This document shows, in pieces, positions 19,201 through 46,250 of a DNA stretch of 46,462 nt (position 1 is the first letter of the stretch; each line of letters begins with the position of its first letter). Source of the stretch: Candidatus Hinthialibacteria bacterium OLB16. GTDB taxonomy: Bacteria > Hinthialibacterota > Hinthialibacteria > OLB16. Position numbers and translations under genes: made by a program. Under the pieces are notes generated by a model. That model ran no database searches. It was not told where the DNA came from and saw only the letters and a list, made by a program, of their open reading frames with translations. The stretch is taken from the NCBI GenBank assembly GCA_001567115.1, contig LMZT01000142.1:1-46462 (forward strand). The letters are read 5' to 3'.

Positions 19201-22200
19201 GAATCAGCTGGGCCAGATCCTCGATGGAATAGATGTCATGGTGAGGCGGGGGCGATATCAGCTGCACACCGGGAGTGGAATGGCGCACCCGTGCGATGAC
19301 TTTGTCCACTTTATGGCCCGGCAGCTGGCCGCCCTCGCCGGGTTTGGCTCCCTGGGCCATCTTGATCTGCAGCTCATCGGCATTGACCAGATAACTGTTG
19401 GTGACCCCGAACCGTCCTGATGCAACCTGTTTAATAGCGCTGCGGCGCCAGTCCCCATTCTCATCCCGCACAAATCTCCCGGGATCCTCTCCACCCTCTC
19501 CGGTATTGCTCTTTCCTCCAATGCGGTTCATTGCGACCGCGATGGTTTCGTGGGCTTCTTTGCTGATCGAGCCGAAAGACATCGCGCCTGTTTTGAAGCG
19601 CCGCAGGATGGAGTCGACACTTTCGACCTCATCGAGCGGGACCGGGGGGTGAACCTCTTTGAAGTCGAGCAGGCGGCGGAGTGTGGACAGATTATGCTCG
19701 TGGTTGTCGACCAGCTCGGTGAACTCCTCCCAGGTGGGCCGGTGATTCCGCCGTGTGGCTTCCTGAAGCTTGGCGATGGTCAGTGGATTGTGCTGGTGGT
19801 ATTCGCCATCCCGGCGCCAGGCATACTGTCCACCGCTGACCAGCGGGCGGGCGCCACGGGCATCATGCTGCGGGAAAGCGTAGCGGAATCGCTCCAGGCA
19901 TTCGCGATAAACATCGGGCAGATCAACTCCCTGGATTCTGGAGGCGGTTCCAGTGAAGTATCGGTCAATCAGGCGGCTGTTCAATCCGACCGCTTCGAAG
20001 ATCTGGGCGCCGCGATAACTCTGCAGGGTCGATATCCCCATCTTCGACATCACCTTGAGGATGCCTTTGTTGGCCGCCTTGATAAATTTCTGGACAGCGG
20101 TTTCGAGATCGATGCCGTTGATTTCGCCTTCGTCGATCATCTGCTCGAGGCATTCAAAGGCCAGATAGGGGTTGATCGCGCCCGCGCCATATCCGGCCAG
20201 CAGGGCGAAATGATGAACCTCCCGCGCCTCGCCGGTTTCAACAACCAGCCCCACCTGTGTGCGGGTTCCTTCACGCACCAGATGATGATGCAGGGCGGCG
20301 GTCGCCAGCAGGCTGGGGATCGGCAGATGCTCCCGATCGAGGCCACGGTCACTGAGGATCAGGATAGTGGCTCCGGAAGATATCGCATCCGATGCCTCCT
20401 GGAAAATTGATTCGAGACGGTCTTCAAGGCCGCGGACTCCCTCAGAGACCCGGCAGAGCATGGAGATCTCCACCGAGCGCAATCCATCGCGGTTCACTTC
20501 CCGGATCTGCTGCATCCGCCGGTTGGTCAAAAGCGGGTATGGCAGGCTGAGCAGGCGGCACTGCTCGGGAGTTTCGGCAAACAGGTTTCCTTCCGAACCC
20601 AGGGTGCTGATCAGTGATGTGACCAGCTCCTCGCGTATGGCATCCAGCGGCGGGTTGGTGACCTGGGCAAAGAGCTGCTTGAAATAATTGTAGAGCAGTG
20701 GCGCTTTGTTCGAGAGCACCGCCAGCGGAGCATCGTTTCCCATCGACCCGACGGCTTCAATTCCATCCATCGCCATGGGAGCCAGAAGCATGCGCAGGTC
20801 TTCCCTTGAATATCCATACACCTGCTGTCTTTCGAGCAGGGAGGTTTTTTCCGGCGCCGGACCCTTTCCAGCAGGTTCCGGCAGGTCGCGAATATCCGCC
20901 AGATTTTCCTTAAGCCAGCGCCGGTATGGCCGACGGTCGATCAGGCGCTGCTTGAGTTCTTCGTCGGTGATGATCCGTCCCTGTTCCGGATCGACAAAGA
21001 ACATGCGCCCGGGCTGCAGGCGCCCTTTCATGGCGACATTCTCCGGCGGGATTTGAAGCACGCCAGTTTCCGAAGCCATGACGACACGGTCATCACGGGT
21101 GACTGTATAACGTGAAGGGCGCAGGCCATTGCGGTCGAGCACCGCCCCGATCCGGATTCCATCGGTAAAGGCAATGGAAGCCGGGCCATCCCAGGGTTCC
21201 ATCAGGCAGGAGTGGTATTGATAAAACGCCTTCCGGTCATCCGCCATGGATTCATGCCCATCCCAGGGTTCCGGAATCAGCATCATCATGGCATGTTCGA
21301 GGGGGCGGCCGCCCAGAACAATCATCTCCAGGACATTGTCGAGGGTTGCTGAATCGCTTCCTCTCGGCACGATTGCCGGGAAGATTTTTTTCAAGTCCTC
21401 TCCGAACAGGGGGGAATCCAGAAGTGTTTCCCGTGCGTGCATCCAGTTGATGTTTCCGCGCAGTGTGTTGATTTCCCCATTGTGAGCCAGGAAGCGGAAG
21501 GGGTGCGCCAGATCCCAGGTTGGGAAGGTGTTGGTGCTGTAACGCTGGTGAACCAGCGCCAGCGCGGACACCATATCCTCCGCTGCCAGATCCGGGTAAT
21601 AGCGGCACACCTGATCCGCCAGCAGCAGGCCTTTGTAAACAATGGTCCGTGATGACAGGCTGGGGAGGTAAAAATAATTGGCCTGGCGGATGTTCGAGCC
21701 GCGGATTTCGTTTTCGACCCGCTTGCGGATGACATAAAGCTTGCGTTCGAAAGCCCAGTCATCGGTTTTCGGGCAGTCTCCTCTGCCGATGAACACCTGG
21801 CGCATCAAGGGTTCCACACGGCGCGCCACATGGCCGATGCAGCCGCTGTTGGTTGGGGTCTCCCGCCACCCGAGGAGTGTCTGACCTTCCTCCCGGATGA
21901 TGCGCTCAAAGGTTTTCAGGCATAAATCCCGATCGGCTGCTTCAGTGGGGAAAAAAACAATCCCGGTCCCATACTCACCTGCTGGAGGAAGTGCGATGCG
22001 GCATTCATCCGCAACACGCGACATGAAGTCCTGAGGTATCTGGATCAGGATGCCGGCGCCATCTCCGGTCAGCGCATCACATCCGCAGGCGCCGCGATGT
22101 TCGAGGTTGCGCAGGATCTCAAGGGCATCCACAATGATCCCGCGGGACTTTCGGCCTTTGATGTCCGCGACAAATCCCACACCACAGCTGTCATGTTCAT

Positions 22201-22249
22201 GGATCGGATCATAAAGTCCGGTCCGGGTGAGGGGGCGGTTACCCGTCAT
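16214..22249 (-). CDS. gltB/gltD: glutamate synthase, large and small subunits in one reading frame
   Basis: Makes two glutamates from glutamine and 2-oxoglutarate with NAD(P)H. The large-subunit part has the nucleophile Cys22 exposed after a short propeptide (DSCGVGF), the central domain, the FMN domain ([18 protein letters not shown]), the 3Fe-4S ligands in [15 protein letters not shown] and the glycine-rich C-terminal beta-helix. The small-subunit part has Fe-S ligand clusters ([28 protein letters not shown]), the FAD loop [14 protein letters not shown] and the NADPH loop [13 protein letters not shown]. The junction near 17680 has AGGAGG then GTG GGT AAA, the normal beginning of gltD, and a TAA in the shifted frame that would end gltB. 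So this may be two genes (gltB about 22249-17673; gltD 17680-16214) joined by a missing base, or a real fusion. Confidence 0.93.
17678..17695 (-). promoter_or_regulatory. ribosome binding site and GTG start inside the gltB/gltD frame
   Basis: AGGAGG at 17695-17690, nine bases, then GTG at 17680, which begins the gltD-like sequence [13 protein letters not shown]. The overlapping GTGGGTAA carries a TAA for the other frame. This is the pattern of an overlapping gene pair rather than a designed fusion. Confidence 0.5.
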
Positions 22250-33988: not shown

Positions 33989-34489
33989 ATGAGCCAGGAA
34001 AACCAGAATCTCTCCTCCAAACCTATCCAGTGTGTGGTTCTGACCATCCATGATGGAACCAGCTCCAATCATGATTCCAGCGGCAAGCTGATCGAATCCC
34101 TGCTGCATGAGGGGGGCCATGAGGTGGTTTACCGCCGGGTGGTCAAGCAATCGGAGGCGGCTGTTCGAGAAGCCTTTGCGGAAGCCCTGGCCGATGATGA
34201 GTGCGAAGTGATCCTGACAACAGGTGGAATCGGAGTGTCTCATAAGGATGAAGTCTGGGACATCCTCCACAGCCTGTATCAGAAACGGATCGATAGTTTT
34301 GGAAATTTATTGAATACCCTGATATTCGCTGAATCCGGCCCGGCCTGCCTGTATTCCCGTCCGAGCGCTGGAATCATCGAAAAACATCCGGTATTCAGCC
34401 TGCCATTGAACTCCACCTCGATCCGGGTTGCGCTCGAAAAGCTGATCCTCCCTGAATTGAACACCCTCGTTCTCGAAGCACGCAAGTAA
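33989..34489 (+). CDS. MoaB/MogA-like molybdenum-cofactor domain protein
   Basis: A 166-residue protein of the molybdopterin-binding fold. The family stretch VILTTGGIGVSHKDEVWDIL holds the glycine-rich loop; QCVVLTIHDGTSSNHDSSGKLI is the usual first strand. In the pathway MoaB/Mog adenylates molybdopterin before metal insertion. Here the normal TGGTG is TGGIG and the following Arg-Asp is changed to Lys-Asp, so the role is uncertain. No other cofactor gene is near. AGGAA precedes the ATG. It is the last host-like gene before the phage block. Confidence 0.75.
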   Translation: MSQENQNLSSKPIQCVVLTIHDGTSSNHDSSGKLIESLLHEGGHEVVYRRVVKQSEAAVREAFAEALADDECEVILTTGGIGVSHKDEVWDILHSLYQKRIDSFGNLLNTLIFAESGPACLYSRPSAGIIEKHPVFSLPLNSTSIRVALEKLILPELNTLVLEARK

Positions 34490-34660: not shown

Positions 34661-35959
34661 GTGGGCATTTCTCAGTGGTTCCAGTTATTCCGTAAAAAGG
34701 CCGCCGCACATTCACCTGTAGAACCAATCCGATCCCTCCCTGTACCCCATGCTCCCTCCATACCGACTGCGCCCAGGGCCTCCAGCATGAATGGGGCCTG
34801 GAAGGTGGATTCATCCCGTTATGGCGGGATCATTCCACCCCAGGATCTGATGCCTGAGAGATGGCATGCCTTTTACCGTTACTTGCGGGACCACATTCCC
34901 GATGTCTCGGCGGGAGTCTGGGCCTGGGTGCGTTTATGTTCGACTGCGCACTCACTGGATTATATCGGTGGAACCACCAGCGAGCGTGCCGATGCCCAGG
35001 TGCTTCTTGAGGAACTGGAACGGCGTCTGCTGGAATCCACCTTCGACCATCGCCCCGGTTTCGATGGATTGATCGACCAGTTTTACCAATCCGTTTTTAC
35101 AGTCGGTGCCTACTCCGGGGAGGTGGTGGCTCTGGAAAGCCGCAGCGGGATTTCACACTTTGCGCCGATCGATCCATCCAGCATCCGTTTCAAGCGCTAT
35201 TCAACCTCCGGGCGGATGATTCCCTGCCAGCTTGCTGAGGATGGCAGCCTCAAGCCCCTGCCGGAGGTTTCATTCTTTTATTATGGGCTGGATGCGGATG
35301 CGGAGAACCCTTATGGGCGTTCTCCCCTTTCCAGCCTGCCTTTTGTGCTGCGGCTGCAACAGCAGCTGTTCGAGGATATGGGCAAGGCGGCGCATAATGC
35401 CGGATATCCCTCGCTGCATGTCCGCTACCAGGCCCCCGAGCGTGAACCAGGGGAGGGGGTCGATGCGTATCGCGAAAGAATCCAGGGTGAATTCGATTCG
35501 ATCGATCAGGCTCTGCGGACTCGCTCACCCGAAAGCAATTTCCTCACCCAGGCCAATGTCGAAATCGCCTATGTCGGACCCAATGGCCAGATGCTGCGCT
35601 GGAGGGAAACCCTCGAGACCATCAGCGAGCAGGTGGTGTCTGCCCTGCACCTGGCTCCTTTTCTCATCGGACGCAATTATGGCACCACCCAGAGCTGGGC
35701 GCGTGCGCAGTATGATCTGATGATCAACAACGCCGCATCGGTGCAGCGCGCCGCTGCACGGCTGATCGAGTGGATCGCCAACCTGGAGCTGGCCTTCCAC
35801 AGATTCGATGTCAGGGTGCGCTGCCGTTTCGCCCCGCATCATGGCTGGAATGATGTCGATGAGGCGCGTGCACGGCAGATCCATGTTCAAACCCTGCTCA
35901 CACTCAAAGCACAAGGCTTGATCGAGGATGACCGCATCACCCGCGAACTCGATATCTGA
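34661..35959 (+). CDS. phage portal protein
   Basis: A 432-residue protein of the HK97/SPP1-like portal fold, the dodecameric ring at the capsid vertex through which DNA is packaged. Signs: an N-terminal variable tail, the core SFFYYGLDADAENPYGRSPLSSL, a long alpha region ending DLMINNAASVQRAAARLIEWIANL, and the family segment SALHLAPFLIGRNYGTTQSWARAQ (portal cores carry such a clip/stem). GTG 34661 starts six bases after AGGAGG. It opens the block and is followed by a 37-base gap. Identity is from motif pattern, so moderate confidence. Confidence 0.75.
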   Translation: MGISQWFQLFRKKAAAHSPVEPIRSLPVPHAPSIPTAPRASSMNGAWKVDSSRYGGIIPPQDLMPERWHAFYRYLRDHIPDVSAGVWAWVRLCSTAHSLDYIGGTTSERADAQVLLEELERRLLESTFDHRPGFDGLIDQFYQSVFTVGAYSGEVVALESRSGISHFAPIDPSSIRFKRYSTSGRMIPCQLAEDGSLKPLPEVSFFYYGLDADAENPYGRSPLSSLPFVLRLQQQLFEDMGKAAHNAGYPSLHVRYQAPEREPGEGVDAYRERIQGEFDSIDQALRTRSPESNFLTQANVEIAYVGPNGQMLRWRETLETISEQVVSALHLAPFLIGRNYGTTQSWARAQYDLMINNAASVQRAAARLIEWIANLELAFHRFDVRVRCRFAPHHGWNDVDEARARQIHVQTLLTLKAQGLIEDDRITRELDI

Positions 35960-35996
35960 TTAATCCCGAAAAATTAACAAGGCAAGGAAAGAGACG

Positions 35997-36704
35997 ATGA
36001 AGAACCGCTGTCTTCAGCGAATACAGGATGGCCTGCCGCTCCGTGTGGTGATTCAGGCGGATCGGCTCGATCTGTTTGATCGAACCTCTTCGGACCTGCT
36101 GGGGCAAATCCTCCTGAATGAATCTCCCGGGGATCTGTGCGGCCAGATTTTCTTCGCAACCCTCGAAGCCGCGCAGGGGAGGGAGCTGATCTCCGAGGCT
36201 GATCTTCGCAGGAAACCCCTGGCGGTGTGGATGCTGGATCCGGAGGTGTCAGGACGGCTGGTGTTGGACCAGAACCGGGAGGGGGAGCCGGTTTTCGAAC
36301 CGATCCGCCTGGTGGCGCAGATCCCGGTCGTTTCACGGCCGGTCCTGTTTGAAGAGGCCGGGCTGTCCGCCTGGAAGCTGGCACATTCAATGCCATGCCG
36401 CACTGTCCGGATTTATCAATTTCAGGCGGAGGGGCATTGGCTGATGACAGAAGAAATCAGGAAGGATGAGGAGGTCCCGCCGCAGCAGGCAGCCTCGGAA
36501 GCTGTGCGGCTCACAGACTGTTTTTCCCGGTGGATCGAATCCATCCCGAACCGTCCCTGTGCACGGGCATGGACCTGCCGGGGGAGCCGTAAAGGTTTTC
36601 AGAAACACGAGATGTGGCAGTTCAGTCTGAGATTCGGTGATCCGAACCAGACAAGTCAATCGACATGGCAGAGCCATGATTCAGGAAAGGAGAAAGTGCA
36701 ATGA
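35997..36704 (+). CDS. unknown phage protein
   Basis: A 235-residue protein with no motif I recognise. It is rich in Arg, Glu and Gln, has no signal peptide or membrane helix, and has few glycine loops. AAGGAAAGAGACG lies just before ATG. Its stop overlaps the next gene as ATGA, and it lies between portal and decoration genes, a usual place for scaffold, protease or head-completion proteins. That position is the only clue. Confidence 0.5.
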   Translation: MKNRCLQRIQDGLPLRVVIQADRLDLFDRTSSDLLGQILLNESPGDLCGQIFFATLEAAQGRELISEADLRRKPLAVWMLDPEVSGRLVLDQNREGEPVFEPIRLVAQIPVVSRPVLFEEAGLSAWKLAHSMPCRTVRIYQFQAEGHWLMTEEIRKDEEVPPQQAASEAVRLTDCFSRWIESIPNRPCARAWTCRGSRKGFQKHEMWQFSLRFGDPNQTSQSTWQSHDSGKEKVQ

Positions 36705-37069
36705 GCCGTCTGGCAGACAATCTGGGGGTCGGCAGCCTGTATGGCAGTTTCCAGATCGATGGAACCAGCCCGAATTATGATCTGACCGATGCAAATGTGG
36801 GGCAGGCTGTCGGTCTCTCGGGAAACAATGAGGTGGATCTCGGCAGCAATGGGGGAGCATTCCTCGGGCGCCTGGTATCGGTTCAGACCGATATCGCAGT
36901 TGTTCAGCTCAGGGGTGTGATGCGGATTCCTTACAATGCCGCCAGTGCCCCCGCGCTGGGTGGAACTGTGGTTCTGGATGGAGCCGGCAAGGTCAAGAGT
37001 TCGGCCAGTGGACGTGGAATTGTGATCGCGTTGGACAGCACCGCCGAGACAGCCGATGTCCTGCTGTGA
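36701..37069 (+). CDS. capsid decoration-like protein (DUF2190-type)
   Basis: A 122-residue protein rich in Gly, Val and Asp strands (FLGRLVSVQTDIAVVQLRG, PALGGTVVLDGAGKVKSS, GIVIALDSTAETADVLL). This resembles the small head-decoration/DUF2190 family next to capsid genes. It overlaps the previous stop by four bases and is directly upstream of the major capsid gene. Inferred from pattern and place. Confidence 0.55.
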   Translation: MSRLADNLGVGSLYGSFQIDGTSPNYDLTDANVGQAVGLSGNNEVDLGSNGGAFLGRLVSVQTDIAVVQLRGVMRIPYNAASAPALGGTVVLDGAGKVKSSASGRGIVIALDSTAETADVLL

Positions 37070-37113
37070 ATCCAACGGTGACCTGAATGAAACAGAACGA
37101 AAGGAGCCTTTCT

Positions 37114-38178
37114 ATGGCATCACCTGCGCATGAAGCAGAAGCACTGAGGAACGATCCTCAACATCCCTTCGATATCCCTCTCAGCGAAGACCTGCTGATC
37201 CAGGCACGGTCTCGCGGGGTCGGCCTGACTGAGATCCTCGAGGAGCTCGATCCGAGCCAGGGGGATTCCACCCTGGATGCCTTCGAGCGCCAGCTCGCAC
37301 GCGCCGGAATTCGAATCCAGGGAACACACAGCGACACTATCGACCGATTCTTCGCTTCGACCGAATCAGCCATCCTCTTCCCCGAGTATGTTTCCCGTTC
37401 GGTGCGGATCGGCATGACCGATTTCAGAGCGCTCAACCAGATCCTCGCCACACGCACCCGCATCGACAGCGACACATACAAGACCCTCTTCATGGATGAA
37501 TCGGCGCAAACCGCCGCGGACCGCCGTCTGGCGCGCCTGGCCGAAGGGGCGGAGCTGCCCTGCATTGAAATCAAATCCTCTGAACACACAGTGAAAATCC
37601 GGAAATACGGGCGTTACATCGAAGTCAGTTATGAAGCCCTGCGGCGCAAGACCATCGCTGTGGTGTCCGTTTTCCTGAAGGCCATCGGTTATCAGATCCA
37701 GAAGGACAAGTTCGAGGAGGCGCTGGCGGTGCTTGTCGATGGGGATGGAAACAGCAACCCGGCAGCAGTCAGCAACACCGCGGCCGATGGCACTCTGGCT
37801 TATGCCGACCTGGTGGATTTTGCGCTGTCGTTCCATCCCTATCAGATGAATGTGATCATTGCGCCCCCCGCGGTGGTCAAGACCATTCTGACTCTGGACG
37901 AATTCAAAGATCCATCGACCGGCATGAATTTCCAGGCGACCGGGGATCTGGTGACTCCTTTCGGGGCACAGATCATTCCAAACAGCGCAGTGGCCGCCAA
38001 TACACTGATCGGCCTCGACCGCCGTTATGCCCTGGAAGAGGTTTTCGAAACCGGACTGCTGGTCGAAAGCGACCGTCTGATCCGCCGCCAGCTGGAGGGA
38101 ACAGCCATCTCCGAGGTGGCGGGGTTTGCCAGGATCATTCAGCCGGCTGCGCGAGTCCTCGACATCGACTGGGCCTGA
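37114..38178 (+). CDS. major capsid protein (HK97-like)
   Basis: About 354 residues. The pattern fits HK97-type major capsid proteins: an N-terminal region, an arm segment with ESAILFPEYVSRSVRIG, the E-loop/P-domain area around LPCIEIKSSEHTVKIRKYGRYIEVSYEAL, the long spine helix region, and a late A-domain (IPNSAVAANTLIGLDRRYALEEVFE). Start ATG 37114 has AAAGGAG seven bases upstream; ATG 37087 adds nine residues without a good site. It would self-assemble around DNA to form an icosahedral head. No scaffold gene is clear. Confidence 0.75.
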   Translation: MASPAHEAEALRNDPQHPFDIPLSEDLLIQARSRGVGLTEILEELDPSQGDSTLDAFERQLARAGIRIQGTHSDTIDRFFASTESAILFPEYVSRSVRIGMTDFRALNQILATRTRIDSDTYKTLFMDESAQTAADRRLARLAEGAELPCIEIKSSEHTVKIRKYGRYIEVSYEALRRKTIAVVSVFLKAIGYQIQKDKFEEALAVLVDGDGNSNPAAVSNTAADGTLAYADLVDFALSFHPYQMNVIIAPPAVVKTILTLDEFKDPSTGMNFQATGDLVTPFGAQIIPNSAVAANTLIGLDRRYALEEVFETGLLVESDRLIRRQLEGTAISEVAGFARIIQPAARVLDIDWA

Positions 38179-38255
38179 TCGCAGCGCCGGCATGATCTGC
38201 CGCCGGACTCAGCCGGGCGTGCGCTCTCCCGAAAAATCTCGAAAGGATCCCTTGA

Positions 38256-38648
38256 ATGCCATTCTCAGATGAATCCCTGATCCGAACTCACAGCGGGTGG
38301 GCCAACACCAGCCTGGTGCCGTCATCGCTGGTGGTTCAGCGCCTCGAGGATGCACACCAGGTTCTCCTGTCAGCCCTTCATCCGGATTACCTCCAGTCCG
38401 AAGATCCGCGCCTGGTGCTGGCGGAAACCGAGCTGGCGACTGCATTTATCCTGCGTTCACTCGCCACGGAAGCGGGCTTCGAGGACCGGGATATCCGCAC
38501 CACACAGATCACACTCCGCGCCGGCTCGCGTGTCCGCAATCTGATCGAACTTGCGGATAACGAAGAGTCGCTGGCCTGGAGCCATGCGCGTCCGCTGCTG
38601 GCATGTGCCGGCTCGCGCATTCCTCTGCGCCTGGTGAGCGGGGGCTGA
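38256..38648 (+). CDS. head-tail connector-like protein
   Basis: A 130-residue alpha-helical protein between capsid and tail genes. AAAGGA lies before ATG 38256 and the stop is two bases before the next start. Its size and place fit a gp6/DUF1320-type connector, but no motif was recognised, so the call rests on context. Confidence 0.45.
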   Translation: MPFSDESLIRTHSGWANTSLVPSSLVVQRLEDAHQVLLSALHPDYLQSEDPRLVLAETELATAFILRSLATEAGFEDRDIRTTQITLRAGSRVRNLIELADNEESLAWSHARPLLACAGSRIPLRLVSGG

Positions 38649-38650
38649 GC

Positions 38651-39331
38651 ATGGTGTCCATCGGAACATTCACACTGCCTGATAATACCACCTGGTTCGA
38701 GACACGGATCGATCGGGTCGAAGAACGTTACCGGCGGGTGGTTCAAGTGGAATCTGTTCTCACTCGATTCGCCAGCCAGGAGTCTTTCCAGAGCTCGATC
38801 GACGAGCTCCAGCGCCAGATCGAGCGTCTGGACCGCCAGGAGGCAGCCCTGTCGGTGGCACCCGGAAGATCCATTCGAGGGCAGCGGCGGCGATGCCACC
38901 TGCATCGTGACACCGAAAAGTGTATTGCAGTTCTGAGCCTCGAGGTGCTTGGGGTGGACCGTTTTGAATATGGTTCCCTGCAGCTCCATTCGCAGGAACT
39001 GGCCTCCAGCCCGATGAATCTTCTGGCCAATGCTTCAGGAAACTGGACCGCGCTGCCACGAATCCAGATCTCCCCATCCGGAGAGATTCAGTATCCGCAT
39101 CTGTTTGACGGCCAGAACCAGATGACAGTTTTTCTGACCCTCTCCGCCCTGGATGTCCTGGTTCTCGATTCTGCGAATCGGACAGTGACACTCAATGGAA
39201 CGAATGTCCTGCGGGACACCCAGGGAGAGTTTGTCGAAATGATTCCCGGGCAGGCCAACCTTCATTACAGCGATGCAGGCGGCAGCCGCAGTGGCACTGC
39301 CCATATCTTCTGGGAGGACCGTTGGGTATGA
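38651..39331 (+). CDS. distal tail-like protein
   Basis: A protein of about 226 residues. The C-terminal half has a beta-rich pattern typical of distal-tail (Dit) or similar tail proteins: GNWTALPRIQISPSGEIQYP, VLVLDSANRTVTLNG, then an LSPGNN-like segment MIPGQANLHYSDAGG and HIFWEDRWV. The N-terminal half has a long charged helical region (RVEERYRRVVQVES, SIDELQRQIERLDRQ). Start ATG 38651 follows GGGGGCTGAGC. A longer frame to 38603 has no ribosome site. No tape-measure gene is linked to it. Confidence 0.5.
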   Translation: MVSIGTFTLPDNTTWFETRIDRVEERYRRVVQVESVLTRFASQESFQSSIDELQRQIERLDRQEAALSVAPGRSIRGQRRRCHLHRDTEKCIAVLSLEVLGVDRFEYGSLQLHSQELASSPMNLLANASGNWTALPRIQISPSGEIQYPHLFDGQNQMTVFLTLSALDVLVLDSANRTVTLNGTNVLRDTQGEFVEMIPGQANLHYSDAGGSRSGTAHIFWEDRWV

Positions 39332-39357
39332 GCTCATCTGAATCAAGGAGAAATTCG

Positions 39358-40073
39358 ATGCCAGAGGCCATCGTTTCACGTGCCACGCAGCTCGAAACAC
39401 CCTCTGACGGGCAGACAGTCGATGATGTGGAGAACATGGCCCTGATCAATCAGCTGGCGAATACGCCGCTTTCCCGTGGCCAGGTCTATATCCGCAGCAT
39501 GTATCTGTGCTCTTCACAGCTGTGTGAGTCCGACTGGTGCCGTTTCACAACACGGGCGCTTGATCGATCTGCCGAAAGGTGGTCGGCCAATCGGTCCTGG
39601 CCGGGCATGACAAACGCACACTGCCGGTGGCCCGATTTTTCAAGGCGGCGCTGGTCGAGCGCCCGGAGGTGCCGGAGGCAGATTCCGGGAAGCCCACGCT
39701 GTGGGTGCGAGCCTGGTTCTACTGGCTGAAAGGCACCCATGGGGCGGATGATCTGGCGCTGAACATGGATGGCGGCATCTATCGCGAGGTGTCGATTTCA
39801 TGGAGATACAGCGGCGGACATTGTTCCATCTGCGGCAAGCCCATGCGCAGCTGCCCGCATCAGGCAGGCGAGGTTTATGACAATCAGGTGTGTTACACCT
39901 GGATCGAGAATATTCTCGATGTCCTCGAAGGCTCCCTGGTCTACAAGGGGGCTGACCGGGAAACTGCCATCGCCGGAGAGCATCAGCCCCGCTTCGAATC
40001 TCAGCCGACTGCGCTGGAACGCCTCCTGCTTTTCGAGGTGGAGCTGTTCCGGGATGGAGGTTCACAGTTATGA
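39358..40073 (+). pseudogene. prohead-protease-like protein with a frameshift
   Basis: AAGGAG lies seven bases before ATG 39358. The first frame reads to about 39560 (FTTRALD) and a second frame continues from about 39570 (KVVGQSVLAGHDKRTLPVARFF) to 40073. Together they give about 238 residues. The second part has a Cys/His cluster CSICGKPMRSCPHQAG and the stretch ILDVLEGSLVYKGA, a pattern I associate with HK97-type prohead maturation proteases of some phages. Its place after tail-like genes is unusual for that role. One base is lost or gained near 39560-39580. It overlaps the next gene as ATGA. Confidence 0.55.
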
Positions 40074-40858
40074 GCCGCGCCGGCCGATATGATCCTCTCG
40101 GGGCTTTGAACAGCAGTGATCTGTTCGTGTATGGCGAAAGCCCGGTCACTGCCGCCAAGCTGAACCGTTGGGACAGCAACATCGCCGCATCCTTCTGGCT
40201 GGTGCAGTCACTGCTCCGGAACATCGCCATCCCCGAAGGAGAGGCCCGCCTGGCAGCACTGGGGAATCCACCTCCCCTCAAAGTCGAGGCGCAGGAGGTT
40301 CCGGACATGACTGTCCGGATCCAGCCTGGATTGCTGATCGGTCCCGGCTGGGTGGCTGGGTCTTCGGCAGCCGGAAGAATCCCGGAGACAGGATCGATTG
40401 CTGCTCCCTCAGTCCAGGCGCGAATCGATGCCATCGGAATCAATGCTGAAGGGCAATGGGTTCATCAGGCCGGCCAGGAGGCCGCAGCACCGGAATCTCC
40501 GGATCTGCCCTCAGAGACTGTTCATCTGGCTGACCTGTATCTGCGGCCAGGATCTGTTTCGATTCTGGATGCCGACGATGCAGTCAATGGTTATATCATC
40601 GATCAGCGCCCGCCATTGTTGTCTTCTCGAGCTCACCAGCACACGGCCATCGAACAGCCTGCGGAAACCTGTGATGGAGCCCGAACCGCATTTTCGACTC
40701 AGCAGAGATTTCTCGCCGGCAGCCTGCGTGTGTATGCAAATGGCCTGGCACTGATTCCTGCGGTTCATTACACCGAGGATGGAGGCCACATGGGTTATGC
40801 CTTTGTGAATCCCCCTCCAGCCGGATTTGTCATTCACCACGAATACCAGCCGGCCTGA
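40070..40858 (+). CDS. tail fibre/baseplate-like protein
   Basis: A 262-residue protein with strands and turns of tail-spike/fibre type in its C-terminal third (FLAGSLRVYANGLALIPAVHYTEDGG, then NPPPAGFVIHHEYQ). The N-terminal part has Pro and Gly and no recognised domain. ATG overlaps the preceding stop by four bases. Probable virion-surface or baseplate part; moderate confidence. Confidence 0.5.
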   Translation: MSRAGRYDPLGALNSSDLFVYGESPVTAAKLNRWDSNIAASFWLVQSLLRNIAIPEGEARLAALGNPPPLKVEAQEVPDMTVRIQPGLLIGPGWVAGSSAAGRIPETGSIAAPSVQARIDAIGINAEGQWVHQAGQEAAAPESPDLPSETVHLADLYLRPGSVSILDADDAVNGYIIDQRPPLLSSRAHQHTAIEQPAETCDGARTAFSTQQRFLAGSLRVYANGLALIPAVHYTEDGGHMGYAFVNPPPAGFVIHHEYQPA

Positions 40859-40936
40859 TCCAGGCCACTCGAAACCACTACGGCGATCTTGCATCCGGGC
40901 CAGGCCCGGAGGTTATCTGGAGGTTTATCTGCAAAC

Positions 40937-41905
40937 ATGAATAAAAAAATCGCATGTCTGATTCTGCTCGCTGCGGGAGTTCCCCTGGCGGCTGTTGCCC
41001 AGTTTCAGAAAATCGGCATAGAACAGCTGCCGGCGAATCTCGGCAATGTGGTTGCTGACCTTGTGACAGCGCCAAAGATCAGGGCTTACAACTCTGCAGG
41101 AAACGAGCATCTGCTTTATATCGGCAGTGACAGCGGCAATTCCACCGAGGGGTTCCGCTTCCGGTTTGATTCATCGAGCGGGCAGGCTTTTCTGTATGTC
41201 CGCAATTCGCTCCGCTGGCAGTTTGATTCCGGCAACATGTTCCTGCGGGATCCGCTCGATTTTTTCGATGGGGATGATCTGCGCTGGAATTATGATGATG
41301 CCAGCCTTGGGTATAACAGTTCTTCAAATGTTTTTCGCTTCGAAGATGCCAGTGACGCATCCATGGTGACTCTGGACATGGATGATGGTTCGCTGGATGC
41401 GCAGGGGTATTCTGAGTTTGGCAGCGCCTCGAGCACCCTGTCGATTTTTCAGCCTGCAGCAGAAGCGATTTCGGACTCTTCTTCGGCCGGAACTCCGGAG
41501 GTGTTGTTTTTCAGCACCGGCAACGATCTCTCTCCACGGCTGGCGGGCATCGATTCCCATGTTGTGTTCGGGTGCCCCTGGGCAACCTCGGGCACACGGC
41601 TGAAGAGCCTCAAGGCATTCTTCTATTTCGAGACTGCCAGTGACAAAGCCAATTTCTCAGTCTCGCGCCGTTCAACCACTGCACCTCAGACAGAGGTGAG
41701 CCTGTTGAATTATGCCGGCAGTGATTACAACAAATCCAACTCCACCCAGGTGAGTGGGAATTACTACACCGTCTCTTCGAATCTGAACACCACGCTCAGT
41801 GGAAGCAATCAGGCATGGGCCACAGTGCGCCTGTATGCCAGCAGCAATCCGCGGGACTGCCGCCTGTGCGGCATCGAGTGGGTGTTCGAACAGCGTCGCT
41901 ATTGA
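40937..41905 (+). CDS. signal-peptide fibre-like protein in the phage block
   Basis: About 322 residues. It starts with a strong Sec signal peptide (MNKKIACLILLAAGVPLAAVAQ), which is unusual for a virion gene. The body has regular strand repeats (FRFRFDSSSGQAFLYVRNS, LRWQFDSGNMFLRD, LRWNYDDASLG, DASMVTLDMDDGSLDAQ) like fibre or adhesive domains, and a C-terminal beta domain (ATVRLYASSNPRDCRLCGIEWVFEQRRY). GGAGG lies about 13 bases before ATG 40937. It could be a host-exposed protein encoded with the element or a fibre carrying an export signal. Function unknown. Confidence 0.6.
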   Translation: MNKKIACLILLAAGVPLAAVAQFQKIGIEQLPANLGNVVADLVTAPKIRAYNSAGNEHLLYIGSDSGNSTEGFRFRFDSSSGQAFLYVRNSLRWQFDSGNMFLRDPLDFFDGDDLRWNYDDASLGYNSSSNVFRFEDASDASMVTLDMDDGSLDAQGYSEFGSASSTLSIFQPAAEAISDSSSAGTPEVLFFSTGNDLSPRLAGIDSHVVFGCPWATSGTRLKSLKAFFYFETASDKANFSVSRRSTTAPQTEVSLLNYAGSDYNKSNSTQVSGNYYTVSSNLNTTLSGSNQAWATVRLYASSNPRDCRLCGIEWVFEQRRY

Positions 41906-41929
41906 GCCATTTCTTCAAAGGACACAGAA

Positions 41930-42244
41930 ATGAAACTGGATCTGGAAAATTCCTCCCAGGGAGGGATCTGGAAGGCAGCTGCTGCCACCCTGGCGGGAAT
42001 GCTGGCCACAGGCCTGAGCGCCTGGCTGCTCTTCGCCCAGGAGGCGGTCACCCGCGATGAGGTCCTTCATTTTATCCAGCGTGAAACACCCTACATCGAG
42101 GACCGCAAAGCGATCCAGGAATCCCTGGTGCGCAATCATGAATCCATCCTGCGCATGGCGGATGAAATCGCTCTGATCCGCGCCCAGCAGATGCGCATGG
42201 AATCGAAGCTCGATGTCCTGCTGGGGCAGAAAGGAGCGCCCTGA
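41930..42244 (+). CDS. single-pass membrane coiled-coil protein (spanin/holin-like)
   Basis: A 104-residue protein with one hydrophobic helix (about residues 16-36) followed by an acidic/basic helical tail (about 40-100) likely to form a coiled coil. AAAGGA lies before the ATG. Its last base of stop overlaps the start of the endolysin gene (TGATG). Such proteins in lysis cassettes are inner-membrane spanins or holin partners. No exact family recognised. Confidence 0.6.
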   Translation: MKLDLENSSQGGIWKAAAATLAGMLATGLSAWLLFAQEAVTRDEVLHFIQRETPYIEDRKAIQESLVRNHESILRMADEIALIRAQQMRMESKLDVLLGQKGAP

Positions 42245-42657
42245 TGACCCGTGGTACGCCTGTTTCGGCTCACCTTGTCTGGGAAGAGATTTGTTGCGGC
42301 TGTCATCGCCGGGGTTGTGCGGATGGCTGCACAGGAGGTGTACTCGATCCGGCGGTGGCGGATTTATTTGAAAGGATTCGTGCTTCCTGTTCCAGTTATC
42401 TGGGCCGGGATTGCCCGATCCGTGTGAGCAGCGGGGTCCGATGCCCGGCCCACAACAGGCATGTGGGAGGTGCGGCTGAGTCGGCCCACCTCGAAGGAAA
42501 AGCGCTCGATCTGCTCTGTCCGGAAGGGCTCTCCCTGGAGATTTTCTGGGCTGTCTGCGGGCAGGAAGCCGGTGATGGCGGCTTTGGAAAGTATCACTGG
42601 GGAGCACATGTGGATACGCGGACTGATCCCCCCTGCCGGCGCTGGAGTGCCTTATGA
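42244..42657 (+). CDS. M15 peptidase endolysin (D-Ala-D-Ala carboxypeptidase-like)
   Basis: A 137-residue zinc peptidase of the M15A type (peptidoglycan hydrolase). The motif S80-A-H82-L-E-G85-K-A87-L-D89 matches SxHxxGxAxD with the first zinc His and the Asp; the last zinc His is H118 or H122 in HWGAHVD. The N-terminus is Cys-rich (CCGCHRRGCADGC), which is not usual and may bind metal. No signal peptide is present, so a holin would be needed for access to the wall. Confidence 0.88.
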   Translation: MTRGTPVSAHLVWEEICCGCHRRGCADGCTGGVLDPAVADLFERIRASCSSYLGRDCPIRVSSGVRCPAHNRHVGGAAESAHLEGKALDLLCPEGLSLEIFWAVCGQEAGDGGFGKYHWGAHVDTRTDPPCRRWSAL

Positions 42658-42965
42658 AGCTGAAAGACCTCGAAGAAACACAGTTTCGTGAAAATCGGTT
42701 TGGATTTGCACTGTCTCTCTCAAACAGACACCTCGGAGAGATTGTCCGATCCCTGATTCAGAAATTCCAAAGGAGGAAAACACATGTCACGATGGAACAG
42801 CCGGAAGTTTGTCGCCCTGCTGGTGACTCTGCTGACCAACCTGCTTGTATGGGCGCAGGTCGATACCGAAACCGCACAAGCATTCGCATCCGCCGCCATC
42901 AATGCCCTGGCGCTCGGGTATATCATTGTTCAGGGCCTGATCGACGCACGGGAGAGCCGTCATGA
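42654..42965 (+). CDS. small overlapping ORF, doubtful
   Basis: ATG 42654 overlaps the endolysin stop (ATGA). The first 45 or so codons give a charged sequence, but the frame then runs through the holin-like gene in another frame and becomes Arg/Cys-rich. Only the first part could be real, with the end displaced. Listed because of the coupled start. Confidence 0.25.
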   Translation: MKLKDLEETQFRENRFGFALSLSNRHLGEIVRSLIQKFQRRKTHVTMEQPEVCRPAGDSADQPACMGAGRYRNRTSIRIRRHQCPGARVYHCSGPDRRTGEPS

Positions 42966-42978
42966 CCAGCAGCGATAG
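42784..42978 (+). CDS. holin-like small membrane protein
   Basis: 64 residues with two hydrophobic segments (about 8-24 and 32-52) and a charged end. AAAGGAGG lies eight bases before ATG. Size, place next to an endolysin and topology fit a class II-type holin. Its stop overlaps the next gene by 17 bases. Confidence 0.65.
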   Translation: MSRWNSRKFVALLVTLLTNLLVWAQVDTETAQAFASAAINALALGYIIVQGLIDARESRHDQQR

Positions 42979-43261
42979 CCCTCCCACCGGGTTCTGGGGG
43001 CAGCTGCTTCGATTCCTGTTTGAAGTTATCGAGGTCACCGAGACTCTCTCCGCAGATGCCGGCAGCAGGGAAAAGAAGAGGCATGCGCTGGAGCTTGTGG
43101 AGAAGTGGTACCGTTCGAGCGGCATCCGCATCCGCTATCTTCCGGCTCCGATCGAGCGTTATGTGGTGCGCCGGATCGCATCCGATCTGATCGATGCCCT
43201 GGTCGAGGTGCTCAACTCGCTTCCAGCCGACTCTGTTCTGGAAGAGAGCCGCGGATTCTGA
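42962..43261 (+). CDS. unknown small phage protein
   Basis: 99 residues, helical and charged, starting inside the 3' end of the holin-like gene. No motif was recognised. It has no membrane segment of clear length. It could be a lysis regulator or a tail chaperone-like protein; context only. Confidence 0.5.
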   Translation: MTSSDSPPTGFWGQLLRFLFEVIEVTETLSADAGSREKKRHALELVEKWYRSSGIRIRYLPAPIERYVVRRIASDLIDALVEVLNSLPADSVLEESRGF

Positions 43262-43280
43262 GGAGAACTGTCCAGTTTCC

Positions 43281-44384
43281 ATGCGACTTTATCCCCACAT
43301 ATCCATAGTCGATCCCGATGGAGGCCTGCTGTGGTCCTCGATCGAGGTGATGAAGGTGAATGTGATGGCGCGATTCGGAGCGGAAGACTCCGAAGCGGAG
43401 GTCTTTCTTCACCCGCATTCGCCGTTGCCTTCCTGCCAGCTGGGGGATGGGCTGATCATCCGGTTCGGCAGCACCATCCGCTTCCGGGGAACTCTCGTAG
43501 AAATTCAACGCCGGACAGTGGGTTCCCCCCTGGTCCTCAAGGCCTGCCGCCGTCCGCGCCGGCTGTTTCAACGGGAGGTCCGTGGCCTGTACGAGCACCA
43601 GTCACCGACAGAGATATTGTCCTCGATTCTGCTCTCGACTTATCCGCATCAGTTGTGGTGCGAGAATCAGCCTGCCTCGAACCGGGAGCTGGATCGCCTT
43701 GATTTCCGCGGGATCCCTCTGTTCTATGCGGTGGATCTGCTGGCGAAGCTGGCGGGCAACTGGCTCTGGTGGATCGATTGGGAGGATCACCTGCATTTCA
43801 TTTCCCCGGATTCACCCCCCGAGCATGAGTGGTATGTTCGTGAGGATTTCCTGCTTCTGTCACCCCGATTGAGCGATTACCGGGTAAAAAATGACTTTGA
43901 GTTCCATGGAGGGGTGATCGAAGGAGAAGAGTTCCTCCGGACCTTTTCGGATGCGGGCAGCATCGAGCTTTACGGCCGCAGCCCCGAATCCCTGTTCGCC
44001 CGTGCAGTGACGACACCCCTGGTTTTCGAATACCTGAAAGAGTCAGTGACCGAGGAGCTGCCCAGCCCGGGATATTCACGATTCATTCAGCGTGTGGATG
44101 GCGGTCTGGATGCCTTCTTTGGTGAGCGGTTTCGCCTGCGCGGGAATCTTCCGGCTGGAATGAGCTCCGGCCAGGTGTTTCGGATCGCCGGTGAGGAAAT
44201 CACCTGGAGTGAAAAAGGGCTATCGACCCGGTATCACCTGGCTTCCGGCATGGAAAGCGCCTCCCGGTACACCCGTTATCTGGATCATGAGCCTCTCACA
44301 GTCGATTTTGTTGGCTCCCAGCTCGGCTGGTTCACACTGGACCTGTCTTCGCTGGATTCAGAGGTGCGCCTGGGGCATGAATGA
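43281..44384 (+). CDS. baseplate hub/tail protein-like
   Basis: About 367 residues, of the gp27/late-control-like hub pattern: an N-terminal beta-rich region (RLYPHISIVDPDGG, GLIIRFGSTIRFRGTLVEIQRR), a middle domain with LDRLDFRGIPLFYAVDLLAKLAGNWLW, and a C-terminal beta part. AGGAG lies 15 bases before ATG 43281; the longer frame to 43194 adds 29 unrelated residues. It probably forms a tail or baseplate centre. No tape-measure gene lies beside it. Confidence 0.55.
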   Translation: MRLYPHISIVDPDGGLLWSSIEVMKVNVMARFGAEDSEAEVFLHPHSPLPSCQLGDGLIIRFGSTIRFRGTLVEIQRRTVGSPLVLKACRRPRRLFQREVRGLYEHQSPTEILSSILLSTYPHQLWCENQPASNRELDRLDFRGIPLFYAVDLLAKLAGNWLWWIDWEDHLHFISPDSPPEHEWYVREDFLLLSPRLSDYRVKNDFEFHGGVIEGEEFLRTFSDAGSIELYGRSPESLFARAVTTPLVFEYLKESVTEELPSPGYSRFIQRVDGGLDAFFGERFRLRGNLPAGMSSGQVFRIAGEEITWSEKGLSTRYHLASGMESASRYTRYLDHEPLTVDFVGSQLGWFTLDLSSLDSEVRLGHE

Positions 44385-44790
44385 ACTCGAGAGCCAGGTC
44401 TGCCAGCTGCTGTTCAAGGAGCAGATGTCCAATAAGGAAGCGGCACAACGCCTGAATCTCACACCGGCCGAGGTCCTCAGCATTGCAGTCAAATCCCGCA
44501 CTCACCAGCCCCATGCTGAAACGAATCCACATAAGGCGGCTTCCGAAACAGAAGAGGAACAGATTCAGCGCCTGCGCCGGCAGGTGCGCCAGGGGCTGCT
44601 CGAACGGACCCGGCCTGGAGCCATCGAAGAGATCCCCGCTCATGCCCTGGTCCGGTTGTGGTCGCTGATCGAAGACCAGAAGCTGATCCAGGGAGATTCG
44701 GCCTCGGCGGAAGATCCAATCCTTGACGGTCTGGCGGAGGAGATCAAAAAGCAGATATTCAGCCTGCTGGATCAGGCAGTGGAAGGATGA
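44377..44790 (+). CDS. terminase small subunit-like
   Basis: 137 residues with an N-terminal helix-turn-helix (LLFKEQMSNKEAAQRLNLTPAEVLSIAVKSR) and a C-terminal helical region (RRQVRQGLLERTRPGAIEEIPAHALVRLW, then EEIKKQIFSLLDQAV). The small terminase recognises the packaging site. It overlaps the hub-like gene by eight bases and the large terminase by four (ATGA). The call is supported by the neighbour and the HTH. Confidence 0.7.
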   Translation: MNELESQVCQLLFKEQMSNKEAAQRLNLTPAEVLSIAVKSRTHQPHAETNPHKAASETEEEQIQRLRRQVRQGLLERTRPGAIEEIPAHALVRLWSLIEDQKLIQGDSASAEDPILDGLAEEIKKQIFSLLDQAVEG

Positions 44791-46211
44791 CCCGGCTCCC
44801 TCGTCATTGGCTGCGCGAATACTGCGAGTCTCCGATACGCTTCGCTGCGATGATCCTTGGGCTGAAACTCCCCAAAGCCCAGAAAGAATGGACCGCACAT
44901 TTCGGAGAGCACCGCTTTTTTCATGCAGCCCCCCGGGATCATGGAAAATCCACTCTGTATGCCTTTGTTCTGCCGCTGTGGGAGGTGGCGCGTTGTCCGG
45001 AGAAACGGGTGCTCATCGTGGGCAAGACACTCGATCTGGCCAGCCGTTTCATCACCAGCCTGCGGGAGGAAATCGAGACCAACCCCCGCCTGATTGAAGT
45101 GTATGGTTTTCTGCGTCCGGAAAAACCGCGCGCCTGGAATCGTTATGCCCTTTTCCTCGACCGGAAGCGCAATATCCGTGAGCCGACCCTCCGTGCTCTG
45201 CCTGTCCTGGGGTCCTGTGCCGGGCTGCGGGCGGATCTGGTCATCGCCGATGACATCATCGACAGCGAGCTCTGTTATTTCCGCTCTCAGCGGGACCGTG
45301 TTCATCAGTGGTTCCTGTCCGAGCTGACACCGGTCCTGGAGGCAGATGGCCGCCTGCTGGTGGCCGGGACCCGCAAGCATCATGATGATCTGTATTCCCG
45401 CCTGATTGCCAATCCGGCATACCGTTCCCGCATCGACCGGGCCATTCTGGATGAAAGCGCGAAACAGGTGCTCATGCCTGAACGCTGGCCTTTTGAAAGG
45501 CTGCTGGCGGACCGTGAAGAGATCGGCACAGTGCTTTTCAATCGTGAAAAACAGAACCAGGTGATCGATGAACAGACAGCCCTGTTCAAGCGGGACTGGC
45601 TGGAAGGCTGCCTGGATCCTCTGTCGTTTTCAGGCCCCCAGCTCAACCCGGGCTGCATTGTTGTTCAGGGGATCGATCTGGCCGCAGTGGCGGATCCTCA
45701 GCGGGCATTGGCCAGTGACAGCGATTATAACGCCATCGTGACCCTGGCGCTGGAGGCGGATGACCGGCTCAGGGTGATCGATTTCTGGATGGAGCGCGGC
45801 CTCTCCCCGGAGCTGCTGATCGAATCAATCGTTCTTCAGGTCCGCAGGCATTCCCCCTGGCTGGTGGTGGTTGAAAACAACTCCTTTCAAAGCTGGGTGG
45901 AGCGTGAGCTGAGCGAGAGGATCGAGGTTCCAGTTCAAGGCCACACCACAGGAGCACGGAACAAGCATTCCTTCATCGAGGGAGTCCCCTCATTGGCGGT
46001 GCTGTTTGAAAGGGGCAAAGTGGTTCTCCCCGCAGGGGATGAATACAGCCGAAAGATGAGTGGCCTTCTGATTGACCAGCTCCATGGCCTGGGCCTCGAG
46101 CGGCATGATGATCTGGCGATGGCTTTCTGGTTTGCTGTATCCGCTGCGCGCAGAGTCAGGGAACGAAAGCGGGTTGCAATCAACCTGGGTCCGCCGGTTC
46201 AACGGTTCTAA
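44787..46211 (+). CDS. large terminase subunit (phage DNA packaging motor)
   Basis: 474 residues. Walker A at about 48-56 (PRDHGKST, Lys54), Walker B VIADDI with D155/D156, and the C-terminal RNase H-like nuclease with acidic ligands D297 (GIDLAAVADP), D311/D313, E363 (VVENNSFQ) and D441/D442 (RHDDLAMAFWFA). It pumps DNA into the head with ATP and cuts concatemers. It closes the element and ends in the terminator at 46221-46250. Confidence 0.92.
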   Translation: MTRLPRHWLREYCESPIRFAAMILGLKLPKAQKEWTAHFGEHRFFHAAPRDHGKSTLYAFVLPLWEVARCPEKRVLIVGKTLDLASRFITSLREEIETNPRLIEVYGFLRPEKPRAWNRYALFLDRKRNIREPTLRALPVLGSCAGLRADLVIADDIIDSELCYFRSQRDRVHQWFLSELTPVLEADGRLLVAGTRKHHDDLYSRLIANPAYRSRIDRAILDESAKQVLMPERWPFERLLADREEIGTVLFNREKQNQVIDEQTALFKRDWLEGCLDPLSFSGPQLNPGCIVVQGIDLAAVADPQRALASDSDYNAIVTLALEADDRLRVIDFWMERGLSPELLIESIVLQVRRHSPWLVVVENNSFQSWVERELSERIEVPVQGHTTGARNKHSFIEGVPSLAVLFERGKVVLPAGDEYSRKMSGLLIDQLHGLGLERHDDLAMAFWFAVSAARRVRERKRVAINLGPPVQRF

Positions 46212-46220
46212 ATGAAAAAA

Positions 46221-46250
46221 GGGCTGGCCTTGCGGCCAGCCCTTTTTTTT
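46221..46250 (+). terminator. intrinsic terminator of the phage block
   Basis: Nine-base stem GGGCTGGCC (46221-46229), loop TTGC, complement 46234-46242, then eight T. AAAAAA before the stem makes it work in both directions, so it may also end the minus-strand Cys-rich gene. Confidence 0.95.

Follow-up and report, generated by a model that had tools for sequence, protein, structure and literature searches.

The window analyzed here is the whole of a 46,462-bp contig (LMZT01000142.1; G000:C142) of Candidatus Hinthialibacteria bacterium OLB16, and at 34661–46250 it carries a compact block of phage-derived genes which is a domesticated, vertically inherited element of the uncultured class Hinthialibacteria. 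In our view the block probably represents a gene transfer agent (GTA) or a GTA-like element that has become a permanent part of the chromosome and is maintained by host selection, because it occurs in single copy, co-diverges with rpoB, is under purifying selection, has become dispersed among host loci in some families, and has neither an adjacent integrase nor a recognizable tape measure. Domestication and vertical inheritance are observed, whereas gene transfer is the function that we infer as the best account of them. To our knowledge, few GTAs are known outside the Alphaproteobacteria, and a literature search found no text pairing a GTA with Hinthialibacterota and none for Omnitrophota.

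Occurrence and inheritance within the class

We compared the window genome with 13 further genomes of the class, 14 in all from five families, calling genes in the relatives' contigs with a codon-usage caller. Thirteen of the 14 genomes have exactly one gene for the major capsid protein (MCP), and these span four of the five families, with MCP identities of 52–77%; the portal gene is present in exactly one copy in 12, and the baseplate hub gene in one copy in 13. The preliminary description of the window had proposed searching related genomes for the same island, and the genes were found both together and scattered. In family f1 (the window genome, G001, and G002) they are clustered to the extent that contig ends let this be seen, and in family f4 (G005) they are clustered with the exception of the large terminase gene (TerL). 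In families f2 and f5, a cluster of capsid, distal tail (Dit), and fibre genes, the portal gene, the hub gene, and a different TerL occupy separate loci among host genes, and the lone portal, hub, and TerL genes are still essentially single-copy, with two TerL copies in G008. A TerL in G012 (contig C682) that resembles the window TerL is located on another, phage-like contig and was excluded.

The flanks of these dispersed loci are common to several genera of a family or are common within one genus. In G006, G009, and G010, the capsid cluster is preceded by a gene for an NDH2-type oxidoreductase, five flanking genes of the lone portal are common to G003, G007, and G009, hub flanks are common to G003, G006, G009, and G010 and also to G008 and G012, and TerL flanks are common to G008, G012, and G013. 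The flanking genes tested are host genes, including the NDH2-type oxidoreductase and a glycosyltransferase. The window contig ends 250 bp past TerL, and we therefore took the right flank from relatives. The gene following TerL in G002 belongs to the same cluster as a sulfatase-like gene of the window. Two contigs from the IMG/VR viral collection (L173 and L174) encode an MCP of 49% identity together with a cement gene and an upstream gene of the type found in the class, and their source is probably a relative of the class that has not yet been sampled.

The MCP and rpoB trees have 7 of 11 splits in common, compared with a mean of 0.28 and a maximum of 3 after label shuffling, and their pairwise distances are strongly correlated (r = 0.94), with the rate of MCP evolution being about 1.4 times that of rpoB. 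Agreement with the rpoB tree extends to the hub (6 of 9 splits; shuffle maximum, 4), g7 (6 of 9; maximum, 4), portal (4 of 9; maximum, 4), g8 (5 of 10; maximum, 5), and TerL (3 of 4; maximum, 4), the last three being weaker evidence when taken alone; none of these five trees is in strongly supported conflict with rpoB. We note that rpoB itself has a large insertion in the window family (G000:C46, G001:C305, and G002:C2; loci L268, L266, and L265), with frames of 1396–1632 aa compared to ~1285 aa in f2, which is possibly an intein or a lineage-specific insert.

Purifying selection, for which the preliminary description had suggested a test, is evident between G008 and G013, where dN/dS is 0.052 for MCP, 0.051 for portal, and 0.03–0.27 for the other element genes, all below 0.3. 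Flanking host genes give 0.05–0.17 for the same pair, dS is alike for element and host genes, and saturation of dS affects the estimates obtained for more divergent pairs.

Gene content and mobility

The block comprises ~17 genes in the open reading frame list and profile searches, all on the plus strand at 34661–46211 with short overlaps, and its composition is host-like (GC of 0.58 compared to 0.56, with GC3 within the host range). The portal, capsid, terminase, tail-like, and lysis genes that the preliminary description had read from the sequence are borne out by profile and fold matches, with the small terminase (TerS) being a candidate. To the left lies a host gene with a molybdopterin-binding (MoCF) domain (33989–34489, plus strand; PF00994, E = 2e−19), followed by the head genes: portal (34661–35959; phrog_3753, E = 4e−42), g2 (35997–36704), the cement or decoration protein (36701–37069; phrog_4588, E = 7e−17, with Phage_cement_2 under the cut-off), MCP (37087–38178; phrog_3922, E = 6e−84; Phage_capsid_4, E = 1e−12), and g5 (38256–38648). 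The g2 product, a putative scaffold by its position, is confined to the three f1 genomes (~32% identity in G001 and G002), and g5, which adjoins MCP and is conserved in most class members, may by position be a head-tail connector; neither matched anything in the profile libraries, and PDB sequence searches with MCP and hub returned nothing useful.

The Dit-like distal tail protein (38651–39331) matches SPP1_Dit (E = 6e−11), and its AF2 model (pLDDT of 94) matches SPP1 Dit in Foldseek (E = 5e−11). It is followed by g7 (39322–40073; phrog_16951), a prohead-protease-like candidate, by g8 (40070–40858), a conserved structural protein found across the class with a DUF4815-like segment (weak PF16075 and phrog_358 matches), and by a candidate fibre gene with a predicted N-terminal secretion signal (40937–41905). 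The lysis genes include an M15 peptidase endolysin (42244–42657; PF08291, E = 4e−15; phrog_894, E = 3e−18), preceded by g10 (41930–42244), a putative lysis accessory gene with a predicted membrane segment and helix and a homologue in G002, and followed by a small holin-like membrane protein (42784–42978), suggested by its hydrophobic segments and 67% identical to its G002 homologue. We assign no role to g13 (42962–43261; G002 homologue 61% identical over 77 aa). The baseplate hub (43281–44384) is of the gp27/gp44 type, its top Foldseek matches being gp44, gp27, and VgrG-type hubs, including those of diffocin and Mu gp44, with a low-confidence model (pLDDT of only 53). The TerS candidate (44377–44790) is placed by its position ahead of TerL and weak DNA-binding matches, and TerL (44787–46211; phrog_38, E = 2e−67) has Walker A (APRDHGKS) and Walker B (LVIADD) motifs. 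An intrinsic terminator, an inverted repeat and T-run at about 46214–46250, closes the run. The roles given to g2, g5, g7, g8, g10, fibre, and holin come from position or weak matches.

Profile searches of the window proteins found no integrase, repressor, or replication genes in the block and no recognizable tape measure, consistent with their reported absence in the preliminary description, and also no tail tube or sheath. The longest block reading frames, at 474 and 432 aa, are too short for a conventional tape measure, and the tail encoded is a short one composed of Dit, hub, and fibre. A search of the class genomes with PF10145 found tape-measure matches only on separate contigs in G002 and G013, although these proteins are diverse enough that absence elsewhere in a genome is not proven. 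One of these contigs contrasts with the block in having both an integrase match and a 1327-aa tape-measure frame (G002:C22, 3531–31413) and is probably a genuine prophage. Outside the block, the window also has a 2011-aa reading frame (16214–22249) resembling the large and small subunits of glutamate synthase fused in one frame.

Integrase-family genes are present in all class genomes, but no Phage_integrase match lies near a capsid cluster, the nearest being ~27 kb away in G005 and 112 kb in G002; in G011, one XerC/D-like match is ~4 kb away from the solitary portal gene. We also searched 50,697 phage records and found no free phage with the block. MCP matches there are to unverified faecal contigs at ~42% identity and to named phages at no more than 27%, portal identities are 22–24%, Dit and hub have no match, and TerL has many matches with up to 30% identity. 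The largest MCP-matching faecal contig (MT835508.1, L345; a 46.7-kb GenBank ‘Bacteriophage sp.’) is bacterial chromosome, with its head cassette adjoining a ribosomal-protein operon (SecY, S5, L6, and L5); we rejected it as a free phage parent because of these chromosomal genes beside the head genes, and the record may represent packaged host DNA or contamination. Thus neither of two observations that the preliminary description named as telling against its reading, an adjacent integrase and a free phage carrying the block, was made among the class genomes and the phage records.

The preliminary description had paired the GTA-like explanation with a phage satellite, which would borrow the tail of a helper. 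A satellite would be compact and need no tape measure, as here, but the element itself encodes a capsid, portal, terminase, and hub, lacks an integrase, is vertically inherited rather than mobile, and has its genes scattered in f2 and f5. We reject a satellite on copy number, tree congruence, selection, and dispersal, and regard its probability as next to negligible; the GTA-like half of the pairing is strongly supported by single-copy occurrence, rpoB co-divergence, selection, and dispersal.

The g7 gene is split in the window, at 39322–39579 and 39579–40073, by a one-base frameshift near 39570; where relatives have the gene at full length, it forms one continuous frame. The shift may be a sequencing error or may reflect a broken gene in this strain. 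Programmed frameshifting was rejected because the relatives need no shift and the site shows no visible slippery run. A frameshifted gene, the lack of an integrase, and a contig end beside TerL would suit a decaying prophage in the window strain, with look-alikes elsewhere arising from repeated infections; this was the other alternative raised in the preliminary description, which had countered it with the intactness of terminase and endolysin. That argument holds for the TerL Walker motifs and the matched endolysin but not for the block as a whole, given the state of g7. For the lineage, we reject decay because of copy number, tree congruence, selection, and dispersal; single-copy occurrence across the class, trees that agree with rpoB, common host flanks, host-like composition, and low dN/dS make it very unlikely.

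All 11 fibre genes of the cluster encode a hydrophobic N-terminus that includes a cleavage-like site, as called by a heuristic rather than a trained predictor, and the feature was not seen in the other structural genes of the cluster. The predicted mature protein opens with a conserved QT-I---QIED motif in f2 and f5, and the f5 homologue has Laminin_G_3 and Peptidase_S74 domains. A secreted virion part, as predicted for the fibre, would be unusual. Together with the loose gene linkage, the conserved signal suggests new uses, such as a domesticated capsid serving in storage, DNA export, or as a compartment; we consider this quite unlikely, since portal, terminase, hub, and lysis genes are retained together, which points to DNA packaging and release.

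Related head cassettes in the Oscillospirales

A scan identified at least 586 relatives in named genomes, and the best 80 of these are nearly all in Oscillospiraceae and other Clostridia, with ~40–46% identity. In Oscillospirales, the head genes lie in cassettes of ~12.5 kb (for example, L128, L145, and L137) with the order TerS-TerL-portal-g7 homologue-cement-MCP-adaptors-sheath-tube-short genes-hub-J-I. Their portal, g7-like protein, cement, and MCP are homologous to those of the class element (42–46% MCP identity), and they, too, occur once per genome; they differ in being compact, in having a different TerL, and in coding in many members for a P2/Mu-type contractile tail with sheath and tube. 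Some variants have lost the sheath and tube, and in others the head alone is left. An Oscillospirales g7 homologue located between portal and cement has a weak match (E = 0.027) to a prohead protease/MCP fusion model, and an hhalign comparison of the class hub with the Oscillospirales D protein gives only a short match with a probability of 4%. Cassettes L128, L145, L137, L144, L122, and others are single-copy, with a full head, TerL, and short contractile-tail genes, and neither a tape measure above ~270 aa nor an integrase was seen in them. More distant MCP relatives (31–39% identity) with cement nearby are present in other lineages (G022, G020, and G042; L031–L033).

Among 148 genomes drawn from Oscillospirales, 27 have the MCP, always in single copy, and all 12 cassette-locus genomes have one MCP. 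The MCP and rpoB trees of 29 genomes have 15 of 26 splits in common (shuffle mean, 0.21; maximum, 3), and inheritance in Oscillospirales is therefore also largely vertical. These cassettes are candidate GTA-like elements of gut Clostridia.

Interpretation and comparison with known systems

Using the six GTA features of Kogay et al. 2022 (PMC9662315), three are recognizable from the genes alone: the particle proteins derive from tailed phages (portal, MCP, cement, TerL, Dit, hub, and endolysin); the element is fully endogenized, being chromosomal and split over several loci in f2 and f5; and it is vertically inherited and has co-diversified with its host, with rpoB congruence and host-like dS. 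The other three concern packaged DNA, head size, and delivery. The dispersal in f2 and f5 would make it implausible that the whole set is packaged in one DNA molecule. By the same accounting, the element lacks the integrase, repressor, and replication genes and the mobility of a prophage, and its own capsid, portal, and terminase and vertical inheritance set it apart from satellites.

We propose that a host signal would trigger expression of the element in a subset of cells and that a small icosahedral head would assemble on the portal. TerL would fill the head with host DNA, as element-specific replication and integration are gone, and Dit, hub, and fibre would form a stub tail that closes it. 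Endolysin and holin would then release the particles, which may bind kin.

Several observations weigh against a GTA. The element is known from its genes, with particle formation, host-DNA packaging, and delivery all predicted from them; G004 lacks all the modules sought in it, namely MCP, portal, TerL, and hub, and the element is thus not indispensable; and the window g7 copy may be dead or mis-assembled. No TerL was found in G005 and G006, and the f1 TerL family differs from that of f2 and f5, from which we conclude that the terminase has been replaced at least once. Moreover, vertical inheritance, selection, and lysis genes would be equally expected of a PBSX-like particle whose role is killing and not DNA delivery. 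Such a weapon may package host DNA yet act as a bacteriocin on related cells, as Bacillus PBSX does, and the related Oscillospirales cassettes do have contractile-tail genes, including sheath and baseplate J. However, the class element lacks a sheath and tail tube, and purifying selection acts on its portal and terminase, although a weapon alone would have no obvious use for them; we regard a weapon as unlikely.

A broader picture is possible but more tentative than the GTA reading itself: a class-wide, perhaps phylum-wide GTA that has broken up into single genes at four or more host loci, has a stub tail without a tube, and secretes its fibre through the envelope rather than assembling it in the cytoplasm, within a wider head lineage including the vertical single-copy Oscillospirales cassettes, which could be the elements behind unexplained packaging in gut Oscillospiraceae. 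If true, a GTA kept class-wide while its genes drift apart would be a natural experiment on the conversion of a virus into an organ of its host. Culturable relatives that share the head module, such as Flavonifractor and Pseudoflavonifractor, would allow direct tests of particle production.

Known systems share some of these properties. RcGTA and its relatives (Rhodogtaviriformidae) are similar in vertical inheritance, slow evolution, location at more than one locus, and a Dit-type tail tip, but RcGTA is siphovirus-like with a longer tail than the class element, and recognized homology to the window block does not go beyond fold-level families. The gene order of PBSX resembles that of the Oscillospirales cassettes. 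PBSX, a domesticated prophage-like element of the Gram-positive Bacillus subtilis that packages host DNA (PMC12946183), is unlike the class element in having a long contractile tail, in killing rather than transferring, and in being absent from the class studied. Closer in kind is the GTA-like FpGTA of Faecalibacterium, which has two separate operons, one for head and packaging and one for baseplate, fibre, and lysis, and, as here, lacks replication genes (PMC12946183). Its production of particles was shown by experiment in a 2026 paper; they are ~40 nm, have no visible tails, and contain ~9 kb of host DNA (PMC12946183), whereas the class element is known here from genes. The FpGTA order of TerS-TerL-portal-scaffold-MCP resembles that of the Oscillospirales cassettes, as compared by gene order rather than sequence homology. 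The same study reports DNA packaging in Oscillospiraceae for which the responsible genes were not found (PMC12946183), and the Oscillospirales cassettes would offer a candidate gene cluster for it.

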